From: Nitrospira sp.
GTDB taxonomy: Bacteria > Nitrospirota > Nitrospiria > Nitrospirales > Nitrospiraceae
Assembly (NCBI GenBank): GCA_018242725.1
Contig: JAFEBI010000001.1
Span: 67,008-131,007 of the forward strand
DNA: 64,000 nt
Reading direction: 5' to 3'
Part shown: positions 1,681 to 5,072 of the stretch, piece by piece
Layout: each line of letters opens with the position of its first letter
Position numbering within the stretch: position 1 is the first letter of the stretch
Notes under the pieces: model-generated
Told to the model about the DNA's origin: nothing
The model's input: the letters and a program-made list of their open reading frames with translations, nothing else
Database searches by the model: none
Program-made: the position numbers and the translations under genes

Positions 1681-2094
1681 TTATGAAGCGAGAGATTCAC
1701 TGGAAGGCGGTGCCAGCTGCAGCGCGGCGACCAAGCCTTTGTCCAGCCGTATAACTTTGCCGTTTCCATTCGTCGCCGCCAACCGAGCCGAGCCCTTTAC
1801 CACGATACGCCCACTCACCTTCTCACGGATGACATGTGAAAAGGTCAAGGCTGCTCGAGTCACATCTCCGACTTCCGTTTCGACAACCAGCGTCTCTCCA
1901 TACCGGCCAGGCGAGCAATAGTCCACCTCCGCCCGCACAACAACAAAGATAACACCCTGCTCCATTAGGGCAGCCACCGAATGTCCACGCATTTCAAGAT
2001 ATTCCGTCCGGGCCCGTTCAAAATATTTCAGGTAGTTGGCGTAGTACACGACTCCACCGCAGTCGGTATCTTCGTAGTACACACGAATTTCCAT
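1681..2094 (-). CDS. ybgC: YbgC/FadM-like acyl-CoA thioesterase
   Basis: A 137-residue hotdog-fold protein of the usual length for the 4-hydroxybenzoyl-CoA/YbgC family. The N-terminal signature, an acidic residue followed by VVYYANYLKYFERART, holds the catalytic Asp (YEDTDCGG, residues 7-14) and the helix that packs against the acyl-CoA. Family members hydrolyse short- or medium-chain acyl-CoA or acyl-ACP; in enterobacteria ybgC lies beside tol-pal, which is not the case here. The ATG at 2094 gives the expected N-terminus. It reads in the same direction as the upstream Csm6-like gene with about 60 bases between, so co-transcription is possible. Confidence 0.88.
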   Translation of the reverse strand: MEIRVYYEDTDCGGVVYYANYLKYFERARTEYLEMRGHSVAALMEQGVIFVVVRAEVDYCSPGRYGETLVVETEVGDVTRAALTFSHVIREKVSGRIVVKGSARLAATNGNGKVIRLDKGLVAALQLAPPSSESLAS

Positions 2095-2155: not shown

Positions 2156-3412
2156 TTAGAGACTCAGCACTGGAAACTTCGGCAGCGACGTCTCGTTGAC
2201 GCCTGACAATCTGACAACCACCTCGTACAGTTGCTGTACCCGCTCGGATTTGATCGGTTCGAACCCGTGCCCCAGCACAGCGTGATTTGCCGCATCAAGC
2301 AATGGCTTCATCTTGGGCCATTCCCGCAAGAACCCCTGCCCCAGCTGATCGCCCAACCCGGCCAGGACACGAAACTGCGCTTGGAGTGGCAGCTTGTACT
2401 TGCCGTCGATATCTTCGAGGTAGCAGGTCCGACAAACTTCTTGAAGAGCAACCGGCAGCTGTGCGGGCTGCGCATCCCAACTCTTGATCTTGTGTGATTT
2501 ATAGAGACGGACTTGAGCACAGACCTCAAGCGCCCGGACAAGCGACATCATGGCTGTTTCGGGATCATGGCGAGCATGGAGTCGCCTGCCGGTAGAGGCC
2601 AACAAGTCCAAGACCAGCGACTCCTTGACTTCTGCCGGATCGAGCACGAGTTTCTCAAGAAAACCGGCATTGACTTTGATCGGAGAGATGATGGCCTTTA
2701 ATCCAGGCGGCCCACCCCACAGCGACGCCATTTCCAGAGCCTTTGCAGCAGTCTTCAACTTCTCCCATGCTTGACGATACTGAAACCGCTCCCACAATTC
2801 ATAGCCTTCTACCAGATCTCCGAATGCCCGATAGAGCGGTTTCTGCCCGCCGCTGACCCGCAACTCCACATCGCGGAAGAGTTTCGCCGCACTATGAAAC
2901 AGTCCTCGGTTGAACAGCTCGCATCCTTCACGACGCGCCACCGCTGCCTGTTCATCCCAGGGATTACTTTGCTTCCAAAGAAAGAACTTCCCGTTCACTT
3001 CAACGCGGTCATCCTCTTGCCCCTCTTGAGCAGGACTCAACGCCACCACGCGAGAGGTCCAGGGCACGGCCACCAATGTAAGCGCACCCGCCATTGCGGG
3101 CGTGGCTCCACTCATGTCCACCACCAGTTCTCCTGGTTGGATGGCCCAGGTCCGAAACAGTTCCGGAAGTGAGGAAGCGAGCGTCTTGAAGGTCGAGGAA
3201 AACTCCGTCACATCTTCCAGCACGATCCAATCCCATCGCTTGGGCATCTGATCGATGTTCGGCTGGACAGCCGCCTCAACCAGCGACTTGCTGCCTTCCG
3301 GCAAGACAAAACACAAGGCCTCGGGTTTGAGCCGATTGATCGAATACACGGCAGCCGCGGCATCGTCGACCAATGCAACCACGAGTGCCTTGATGGGTTG
3401 ATCCTGCGCCAT
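2156..3412 (-). CDS. Stand-alone Csm6/Cas02710-like (TIGR02710) protein
   Basis: A 418-residue protein when started at the ATG at 3412; the frame stays open further upstream, but that stretch would run through gmhA and has non-coding character. The N-terminal 150 residues look like a CARF-type Rossmann domain: strand ALVVALVDD, then VVDMSGATPAMAGAL, corresponding to the DxTGGTK-like motif of TIGR02710 proteins. The C-terminal half is helical and ends in a HEPN-like segment, HAVLGHGFEPI. In relatives I recall this site as RNxxxxHGFEP with an R-x(4-6)-H RNase motif; by my alignment the Arg is Asn here. No CRISPR array or other cas gene is present in the window. Known relatives bind cyclic oligoadenylate and cleave RNA. 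Family assignment is from pattern memory. Confidence 0.65.
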   Translation of the reverse strand: MAQDQPIKALVVALVDDAAAAVYSINRLKPEALCFVLPEGSKSLVEAAVQPNIDQMPKRWDWIVLEDVTEFSSTFKTLASSLPELFRTWAIQPGELVVDMSGATPAMAGALTLVAVPWTSRVVALSPAQEGQEDDRVEVNGKFFLWKQSNPWDEQAAVARREGCELFNRGLFHSAAKLFRDVELRVSGGQKPLYRAFGDLVEGYELWERFQYRQAWEKLKTAAKALEMASLWGGPPGLKAIISPIKVNAGFLEKLVLDPAEVKESLVLDLLASTGRRLHARHDPETAMMSLVRALEVCAQVRLYKSHKIKSWDAQPAQLPVALQEVCRTCYLEDIDGKYKLPLQAQFRVLAGLGDQLGQGFLREWPKMKPLLDAANHAVLGHGFEPIKSERVQQLYEVVVRLSGVNETSLPKFPVLSL

Positions 3413-3421
3413 TGCGCGACG

Positions 3422-3450
3422 ACTATACCACTGCCCACATCCTGGTTCAA
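3422..3450 (-). promoter_or_regulatory. Predicted promoter of the Csm6-like gene
   Basis: On the minus strand TTGAAC (3450-3445) and TATAGT (3427-3422) are separated by exactly 17 bases, a strong sigma-70-type match. Transcription would start about 3 bases before the ATG at 3412, leaving no room for a ribosome binding site, and none is visible. Confidence 0.6.
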
Positions 3451-3484: not shown

Positions 3485-3513
3485 TTGACACCCTAAGCCC
3501 TCTTCCCTAGAAT
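3485..3513 (+). promoter_or_regulatory. Predicted promoter of gmhA
   Basis: A perfect TTGACA (3485-3490), a 17-base spacer and TAGAAT (3508-3513) form a near-consensus sigma-70 promoter. The ATG of gmhA is 7 bases after the -10 box, so the predicted transcription start coincides with the start codon. No Shine-Dalgarno sequence is seen. Confidence 0.7.
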
Positions 3514-3520
3514 CGCGCCC

Positions 3521-4099
3521 ATGCAAACAGTGGTATTGACGGCTTTCACAGACAGTGCCAACGTCAAACAGCAATTTGCGCGAGAGCATGTCGATCGCAT
3601 CGTGCAGGTAGCGAAGCTCATCGCGAACGCGTTCAACAACGGCAACAAAGTTCTGCTCTTCGGCAACGGCGGAAGCTCCACGGATGCCGCGCACATCGCC
3701 GCCGAATTCGTCGGACGATATCGGCGCGACCGAGTGCCTCTCCCCGCGATCGCCCTCGCGACGGACATCGCCGCTATTACGTGCATCGCCAATGACTATG
3801 GGTATGAAGAGCTCTTCGCCCGCCAAGTTCGAGCGCATGGTCGAACGGGTGATATTGCCGTCGGCATCAGTACCAGCGGGAACTCTCCCAATGTTCTGAA
3901 AGGTATCGCGGTGGCTCGTGAATGCGGACTCATCACGGTGGCTTGGACCGGCGGATCGGGAGGCAAGCTAGCCGGCCTTGTCGACTACCCGTTTATCGTG
4001 CCGTCCACCCTGACATCCCGGATCCAAGAAAGCCATATTACGCTCGGTCATGTCCTATGCGAGCTGATAGAGGATCATCTCCTTGGGAACACGCCCTGA
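3521..4099 (+). CDS. gmhA: Sedoheptulose 7-phosphate isomerase (GmhA)
   Basis: A 192-residue SIS-domain protein, the family's usual length. The glycine-rich loop LLFGNGGSSTDAAHIAAEFVGRY (residues 45-67) and the second substrate loop GISTSGNSPNVLKGI match phosphoheptose isomerases; the C-terminal helix with ESHITLGHVLCELIE carries the metal/active-site Glu and His. It converts sedoheptulose 7-phosphate to D-glycero-D-manno-heptose 7-phosphate, the first step of ADP-heptose synthesis for the LPS core. The next gene begins inside its 3' end, and rfaE2, a later step of the same pathway, lies 5 kb downstream. A near-consensus promoter ends 7 bases before the ATG. Confidence 0.93.
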   Translation: MQTVVLTAFTDSANVKQQFAREHVDRIVQVAKLIANAFNNGNKVLLFGNGGSSTDAAHIAAEFVGRYRRDRVPLPAIALATDIAAITCIANDYGYEELFARQVRAHGRTGDIAVGISTSGNSPNVLKGIAVARECGLITVAWTGGSGGKLAGLVDYPFIVPSTLTSRIQESHITLGHVLCELIEDHLLGNTP

Positions 4100-5072
4100 C
4101 CGGACAACTCCAACACGCCGTCCTGCCTTGATTGCTCCGATCAATGTATCGGACCTCAAGACCTATCCATTGAAGAAACGGTACAGCAAGGTTCTGGTCT
4201 CCGACTTTGCAACGCCTTGGAAACGTGGAGGTTCTTTCAAGACTTTCTGCGATGGCTTGCCTGACATCCTCGCGGTCAAGTCGTTGCGAGCCGTCACCCG
4301 AGCCATTGTCAAAGCCCATCGGAAACACCGCCCCGTCATCATCGGAATCGGTGCGCATGTCATTAAGGTGGGGCTTGCCCCAATCATCACGAATTTGATG
4401 GAACGGGGGATCGTCACTGCAGTGGCCATGAACGGCGCGGGGATTATTCATGACTTCGAACTGGCCCTCATGGGGCATACCTCCGAGGAAGTCGATACTG
4501 AAATCGATGAAGGTCGATTTGGTATGGCGGAGGAGACGGGACGGATCTTGAACGATGCCATCATCCGTGGCGCAACGGCAGGCCAGGGATTGGGGGAAGC
4601 CATCGGGAACTACATGAATCAGGCGGCGCATCAGTTCCCGAATCGCCGGACCAGCATTCTCGCCACCGGCGTTCGACTTGGGGTGCCGGTCACCGTCCAT
4701 GTTGCGGTCGGAACCGATATTATCCACATGCACCCCTCGGCTGATGGAGCCGCTATCGGGGCCACGTCGCTGCTCGACTTTCGGCGCCTGACAGCCGTGG
4801 TTGCCAAGATGGAAGGCGGGGTGTACCTCAACATCGGATCCGCCGTCATTCTGCCAGAAGTCTTTCTGAAAACGCTGTCGCTGGGGCGGAACCTCGGCCA
4901 TCCGATCTCGAACATTACCACCGCCAATATGGACTTCTTAGTCCATTACCGCCCTCAGACCAACGTCGTGCGACGTCCGACGCAGAAGAGTGGGCAGGGC
5001 TATTCGTTGACCGGCCATCATGAGATTATGTTGCCGTTACTCGCGGCAGCAGTGTTGGAGGAACTGGGATGA
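4083..5072 (+). CDS. Deoxyhypusine-synthase-like conserved protein
   Basis: Up to 329 residues from a TTG at 4083 that overlaps the end of gmhA; another in-frame TTG at 4128 is a shorter alternative that starts nearer the conserved part. Conserved-looking elements are PVIIGIGAHVIKVGLAP, AVAMNGAGIIHDFELAL and VTVHVAVGTDIIHMHP, which point to a Rossmann-type nucleotide-binding fold. I recall relatives described as deoxyhypusine synthase family members and placed beside heptose genes in other bacteria, but the true enzyme and its lysine chemistry are not demonstrated here. No function is assigned. Overlap with gmhA and a 4-base ATGA overlap with the next gene show that the three are one transcription unit. 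Confidence 0.6.
   Translation: MGTRPDRTTPTRRPALIAPINVSDLKTYPLKKRYSKVLVSDFATPWKRGGSFKTFCDGLPDILAVKSLRAVTRAIVKAHRKHRPVIIGIGAHVIKVGLAPIITNLMERGIVTAVAMNGAGIIHDFELALMGHTSEEVDTEIDEGRFGMAEETGRILNDAIIRGATAGQGLGEAIGNYMNQAAHQFPNRRTSILATGVRLGVPVTVHVAVGTDIIHMHPSADGAAIGATSLLDFRRLTAVVAKMEGGVYLNIGSAVILPEVFLKTLSLGRNLGHPISNITTANMDFLVHYRPQTNVVRRPTQKSGQGYSLTGHHEIMLPLLAAAVLEELG

Follow-up and report, generated by a model that had tools for sequence, protein, structure and literature searches.

Gene organisation of the locus

The window (the whole 64-kb stretch of DNA analysed here) encodes on its minus strand a Csm6-like protein of 418 residues, which lies between a thioesterase gene and a divergent gmhA-like gene. 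The features of the locus are listed below, with the evidence for each in brackets.

2156..3412, minus strand: gene for the Csm6-like CARF-HEPN protein, 418 aa, both canonical sites lost (profiles, alignment, fold)
2954..3400, minus strand: CARF domain, residues 5–153, with a remodelled pocket (structural matches at about 7–153; TIGR02710)
3092..3118, minus strand: former CARF motif II, residues 99–107, DMSGATPAM (alignment and profile mapping)
2744..2935, minus strand: Csm6 6H domain, residues 160–223 (PF22205)
2204..2617, minus strand: HEPN domain, residues 266–403, catalytic Arg lost (PF09670)
2267..2290, minus strand: former RNase motif, A375-N376 to H382, equivalent to R415-N416 to H422 of Thermus Csm6 (alignment and profile mapping)
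1681..2094, minus strand: 4HBT (YbgC-like) thioesterase gene, 61 bp downstream, the conserved partner (PF03061)
3521..4099, plus strand: SIS-domain (GmhA-like) isomerase gene, the divergent conserved neighbour (PF13580)
3422..3450, minus strand: weak promoter-like sequence TTGAAC-17-TATAGT, 9 of 12, facing the CARF-HEPN gene
3485..3513, plus strand: promoter-like sequence TTGACA-17-TAGAAT, 11 of 12, facing gmhA and not the CARF-HEPN gene

A longer in-frame open reading frame extends to 3838, inside gmhA. In 43 of 44 aligned rows a start codon occupies exactly the alignment column of the ATG at 3412; the sole exception is a paralogue that is off by one residue. An earlier sequence-only reading had given the gene a near-consensus promoter. 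A promoter-like site does face it, but this is the weaker one, which leaves just 9 bases to the ATG, and the site that is close to consensus faces gmhA.

The thioesterase gene is found downstream on the same strand at 129 of 156 loci, in 86 of them at a distance of −1 to 200 bp; some genomes enter this count twice, and among the 27 loci where no thioesterase follows, the downstream flank is shorter than 450 bases in 8. The gap is 2–24 bp in members of families f2 and f3, and in N. moscoviensis the TAA of the gene directly abuts the ATG of the thioesterase. At some loci the link is broken or distant (up to 4.3 kb). The CARF-HEPN gene is probably expressed together with the thioesterase, and the two would be co-transcribed. 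At six loci (L183, L090, L102, L086, L170 and L150) a gap of 440–540 bp holds an open reading frame of roughly 110–137 codons, apparently inserted into the tight gene pair, which we take to resemble a four-helix-bundle (S23/IVP-type) protein.

Divergently upstream, most loci with enough flank have the GmhA-like SIS gene and a gene resembling deoxyhypusine synthase, gmhA being present at 63 of 66 such loci from named records. Throughout the order the latter gene is found next to the GmhA-like one; in the window, at 4083–5072 on the plus strand, its match to PF01916 (deoxyhypusine synthase) is below the cut-off, at 23.8 bits.

Domain identity and predicted structure

By sequence and fold, the window protein belongs with the CARF-HEPN proteins of the Csm6/TIGR02710 kind and spans their full length. 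Profile searches identify the Csm6 HEPN domain (PF09670, E 3.2e-19, 69.6 bits against a cut-off of 27) and the Csm6 6H domain (PF22205, E 2.8e-12, 47 bits against 27.6), while TIGR02710 matches the whole protein (120 bits against a curated cut-off of 83.9). Several PADLOC CARF-HEPN profiles also match, among them PDLC01812 (CARF1--CARF_HEPN), which scores 805 bits across all 418 positions. Profiles are needed to detect the relationship: a phmmer search of the PDB with the single window protein gave chance matches only.

An AlphaFold2 model was built on 24 orthologues (pLDDT 89.5, pTM 0.75), and has an intact CARF fold at about residues 7–153. Thermus Csm6 ranks first when this model is searched with Foldseek (E 3.1e-14) and with VIA-align (Z 21.5, 372 aligned residues, rmsd 8.3). 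A profile made from changed and intact members of the family aligns with Thermus Csm6 from the CARF domain through the HEPN domain (E 3.4e-18), and at the sites checked its numbering is that of the window protein. In its whole CARF-6H-HEPN architecture and fold the protein is like Csm6 of Thermus thermophilus (5FSH, 8JBB, 8JH1); it differs in that R415, K137, T81 and G58-T59-S60 of that protein are replaced and that there is no CRISPR context. These matches bear out the proposal, made from the letters of the sequence, of a stand-alone relative of Csm6/Cas02710. The window protein is a homologue of Csm6 and, by its residues, would not be a functional Csm6.

The lineage is already known in the sense that NCBIfam and PADLOC profiles cover it, where it is still labelled as a CRISPR effector. 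PDLC01812 is named by its domains and belongs to a defence library, and the tool output does not mention dead sites. The CARF classification of Makarova et al. from 2020 may list this lineage. Our literature search found no apparent paper on a Csm6 that is dead as both sensor and nuclease and is a near-core gene.

Loss of the HEPN RNase site

The motif RNxSxLAHG of the relatives aligns without gaps with A375-N376-H-A-V-L-G-H382 of the window protein, so that the catalytic Arg has become Ala375. The profile alignment with Thermus Csm6 gives the same correspondence, R415-N416-H422 with A375-N376-H382. The sequence-only reading was right that the HEPN Arg is lost, but its change of Arg to Asn was off by one residue: Asn376 is the conserved neighbouring Asn, and is kept, as is His382. 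An intact Arg at a shifted position is ruled out by the gap-free register of RN...LAHG with AN...LGHG together with the Thermus columns. The protein thus has no R-X4-6-H motif.

Conservation was followed in an alignment of 92 proteins, of which 71 belong to the clade of the window protein and 21 do not (15 copies, and six rows of the sister family f20, two of these being fragments from one genome). Sequences that duplicate the window protein or another locus (L001, L054–L058) were left out beforehand; the alignment is also without the fragments from G003, G015:C52, G023, G027, G029:C90, G034, G076, G245 and G265, and without many full-length orthologues listed without a locus. Arg is found in none of the 71 clade rows (Ala in 66, Ser in 2, Val in 2, Thr in 1), and is kept in 20 out of 20 of the other rows that have the region. 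It is also absent from the named records, where the best 80 of 154 matches have Ala 77 times, Val twice and Ser once. The loss is therefore common to the orthologues. The named records include N. moscoviensis and N. defluvii, and overlap the 71-row set; the best 80 of the 154 matches in the contig scan are filled by Nitrospira records, and the changed copies are thus sampled within the phylum.

The D286, R290 and Y292 columns, which are near-invariant in intact HEPN domains, are replaced in the clade too. We infer that the window protein has lost its RNase activity. Because His382 is kept in 66 of the 71 clade rows and Asn376 in 46 (it drifts elsewhere to His, Ser, Asp, Gln, Gly or Tyr), some chemistry or structural role may persist at the former site. 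The five rows without the His (Gln, Gln, Asn, Tyr, Tyr) come from two genera of family f3, g9 and g11: L043, L049 and L100 have Q, N and Q, and L052 and L101 both have Y. Judged by these residues, the site has decayed further there.

Loss of the CARF pocket residues

The residues of the CARF domain that respond to cyclic oligoadenylate (cOA) have been lost as well, a second half of the change that the sequence-only reading did not contain. In the profile alignment, K137 of Thermus Csm6 corresponds to P105 of the window protein, T81 to P38, and G58-T59-S60 to V15-D16-D17; the cA4-binding residues of CARF motifs I and II (G58-T59-S60 and K137) are thus not retained. Where the window protein has DMSGATPAM, the R-bearing copies show DxTGGTKxM. 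The Lys is missing from all 71 clade rows (Pro in 52, Ala in 13, Ser in 3, Val in 2, Thr in 1) and is present in all 20 of the other rows that have the region. There is again no Lys among the best 80 of the 154 matches to named records (P63, A13, S5).

The effect of these residues in Thermus Csm6 is described in PMC10897365: K137A abolishes both cA4 binding and RNA degradation, T81A weakens cA4 binding about 100-fold with RNA still degraded, and in T59A/S60A RNA degradation is lost. On sequence grounds the window protein would no longer bind cOA, and it is unlikely to have kept a pocket for cyclic oligoadenylate. The clade has invariant residues of its own, namely W60, D61, W62, K263, Q346 and G381, the first three of which sit in a CARF strand of the model, and the SGAT-P/A loop of the former motif II is itself conserved.

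Phylogeny, distribution and selection

Both losses have a single origin. When the motif columns are removed before the tree is calculated, all 71 changed sequences fall into one clade (SH-aLRT 100) with one change of state; the tree was made by a 'quick' method with SH-aLRT support only, has long branches outside the clade, and omits the fragments L070 and L071. Adjoining the changed clade is f20 (L066–L071), an intact TIGR02710-like family from another class of the same phylum, which is nearest in the tree and has 37–39% identity to the window protein. It keeps SVGG/SIGG, GGTK (one CGTK) and RNxSxLAHG; the exception, in the first motif only, is L068 and L069, which have SVGE/SVSE. Unlike the window gene, f20 loci had no thioesterase or gmhA neighbours that we could find.

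Within the order, the gene is near-core and usually single-copy. Protein matches were found in 48 of 59 relatives, in 95 of 98 genomes of the order in the phylum sample, and in 204 of 235 genomes of the order overall (a slight overstatement, because in a few genomes, G361 and G362 among them, the match is only as weak as those of paralogues), including 141 of the 153 good ones. The other 12 good genomes had no match to the protein, and the gene is therefore not essential. TIGR02710 (NCBIfam) matches above the cut-off occur in 44 of the 59 relatives, with one copy in the window's own genome. A few genomes (G009, G251, G281, G178 and G297) have an intact second copy alongside the changed one. 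None of the phages or viral contigs searched carried a copy, and the plasmid search returned 13 records, every one below 60% identity (best listed 27%).

The gene is under strong purifying selection. Values of dN/dS against the window gene are 0.04–0.11 in 12 pairs and 0.07–0.17 in 7 further pairs (19 in total), similar to gmhA (0.05–0.13) and mostly lower than the thioesterase (0.14–0.19). The frames are full-length across families, at 46–91% identity. A pseudogene is ruled out by the dN/dS range of 0.04–0.17.

CRISPR and cyclase context

That the gene lacks a CRISPR partner, as first supposed from the window, holds for the genome as well with respect to Cas10 and Cas1. The 64-kb window has no short-spaced direct-repeat family (at least 22 bp, within 150 bp), and whole-genome scans of the window's own genome (96% completeness, 34 contigs) gave no match to Cas10 or Cas1. 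In surveying other genomes, a strong Cas10 match was taken as E <1e-15. Weaker matches, with E of about 1e-4 to 1e-6, were disregarded because the same model also matches in E. coli, perhaps, we assume, by way of GGDEF proteins.

Strong Cas10 matches are present in 6 of 98 genomes of the order (G251, G178, G281, G052, G056 and G297), and in none of these six is the changed gene within 20 kb of Cas10. The window gene, likewise, is not linked to a type III (Cas10) locus. Among the R-bearing copies outside f20, 9 of 15 have a Cas10 gene no more than 20 kb away, as compared by hand from match coordinates; five of the 15 failed or could not be judged (Cas10 on another contig or absent), and L080 is about 130 kb away. 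No contig with an intact f20 gene has a Cas10 match, and in 4 of the 5 genomes of this family a strong Cas10 match is found elsewhere. From these comparisons we suggest a path from a CRISPR-linked effector, through a stand-alone intact protein, to a stand-alone protein that is doubly dead.

In the window's own genome, outside the window, G000:C2:41517-42014 gives an SMODS-type (CD-NTase-like) match of 52.8 bits, and is possibly a CBASS locus. Such matches are sporadic, occurring in 9 of the 59 relatives, this genome among them.

Possible functions

It is well supported that this Csm6-like protein is dead and repurposed. Our preferred explanation, to which we give a probability of about 0.72, is that a CRISPR effector was exapted early in the Nitrospirales and became a binding or adaptor protein that is dimeric, non-catalytic and blind to cOA. 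In the Nitrospirales stem (judged by named records), a stand-alone CARF-HEPN effector would have lost its cOA pocket and its HEPN RNase site. The changed gene would have settled at a fixed chromosomal place before the 4HBT thioesterase gene, and have been retained since as a near-core, usually single-copy gene. The CARF/6H/HEPN architecture would persist as a non-catalytic scaffold, presumably dimeric, serving as a binding or adaptor module and sharing a transcript with the thioesterase. As a guess on which we would not rely, the thioesterase or its acyl product could be the partner; RNA or another small ligand are further guesses.

Catalytically dead HEPN domains, as discussed in PMC3710099, offer a parallel: they have lost active-site residues and retained the fold, and are kept for proposed nucleic-acid or substrate binding. 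The window protein likewise keeps the fold and has lost the catalytic Arg under purifying selection. The same review holds that HEPN domains entirely without conserved charged or polar residues are probably nucleic-acid binders, which fits the window protein only partly, as it keeps the His, and the clade often the Asn. The Cas02710 HEPN family is entered as conserved ('Yes') in the table of that paper, whereas the window clade has lost the Arg.

As an alternative, the CARF pocket could have been remodelled for a different endogenous ligand (a nucleotide or acyl metabolite), with the dead HEPN dimer signalling to a partner, which would make the protein a one-component receptor. The intact CARF fold, the invariant W60-D61-W62 strand and the conserved SGAT-P/A loop agree with this, but their conservation could equally be structural, and both ligand and partner are hypothetical; we regard it as possible but doubtful. 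It seems improbable that the protein is a type III CRISPR effector exapted in the Nitrospirales ancestor as a housekeeping regulator, with a CARF pocket rebuilt for an endogenous ligand and a dead HEPN dimer that governs the co-encoded thioesterase and so acyl or envelope metabolism. Were it so, an immune signalling protein would have joined the core physiology of nitrite-oxidising and comammox bacteria. The sequence-only reading had instead favoured a cyclic-oligonucleotide binder, a receptor or sponge, which might damp type III or CBASS signalling. Such a role could draw on the CARF domain, the Csm6-like fold, the Cas10 genes of six genomes of the order and the SMODS-type cyclases of some relatives. 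We consider it very unlikely, because the window protein has lost the residues with which Thermus Csm6 binds and responds to cA4, and most carriers have no Cas10 match: the critical Lys is absent from every aligned orthologue, the equivalents of T81 and G58-T59-S60 are changed, and the gene is conserved where no Cas10 is found and is never near one in the six genomes that have it.

There is little to be said for an RNase that is still active through a rearranged His/Asn site, constitutively or under some other regulation. The frequent retention of the His and Asn would suit it, and an Arg-less family is on record, PMC3710099 listing HEPN-T Parep with the words 'Lacks R but H is conserved'; against this, the His is lost in two f3 genera, R290, D286 and Y292 are gone, and the Asn drifts. 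Least credible of all is a decaying leftover that has survived by chance from a type III system since lost. The lost motifs and the many carriers without a Cas10 match are what it would explain, but it is contradicted by selection: the low dN/dS, the full-length frames at widely differing identities and the fixed synteny.

CARF-HEPN proteins are usually treated as effectors activated by infection. Here the sensor and nuclease residues have been lost in a single clade, and the gene for the doubly dead protein has become near-core among nitrifiers that are widespread as a group. Nature thus provides a clean example of how a CRISPR effector can be exapted. TIGR02710 or PADLOC matches in Nitrospira genomes are not evidence of type III immunity. 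The intact sister family f20 offers a comparison for what the Csm6 scaffold does without cOA or RNase activity. The same genus includes a genome, G009, that lacks a Cas10 match and carries an intact TIGR02710 copy, L053 (G009:C2:6198-7415), which by its sequence is apparently a stand-alone, competent effector.
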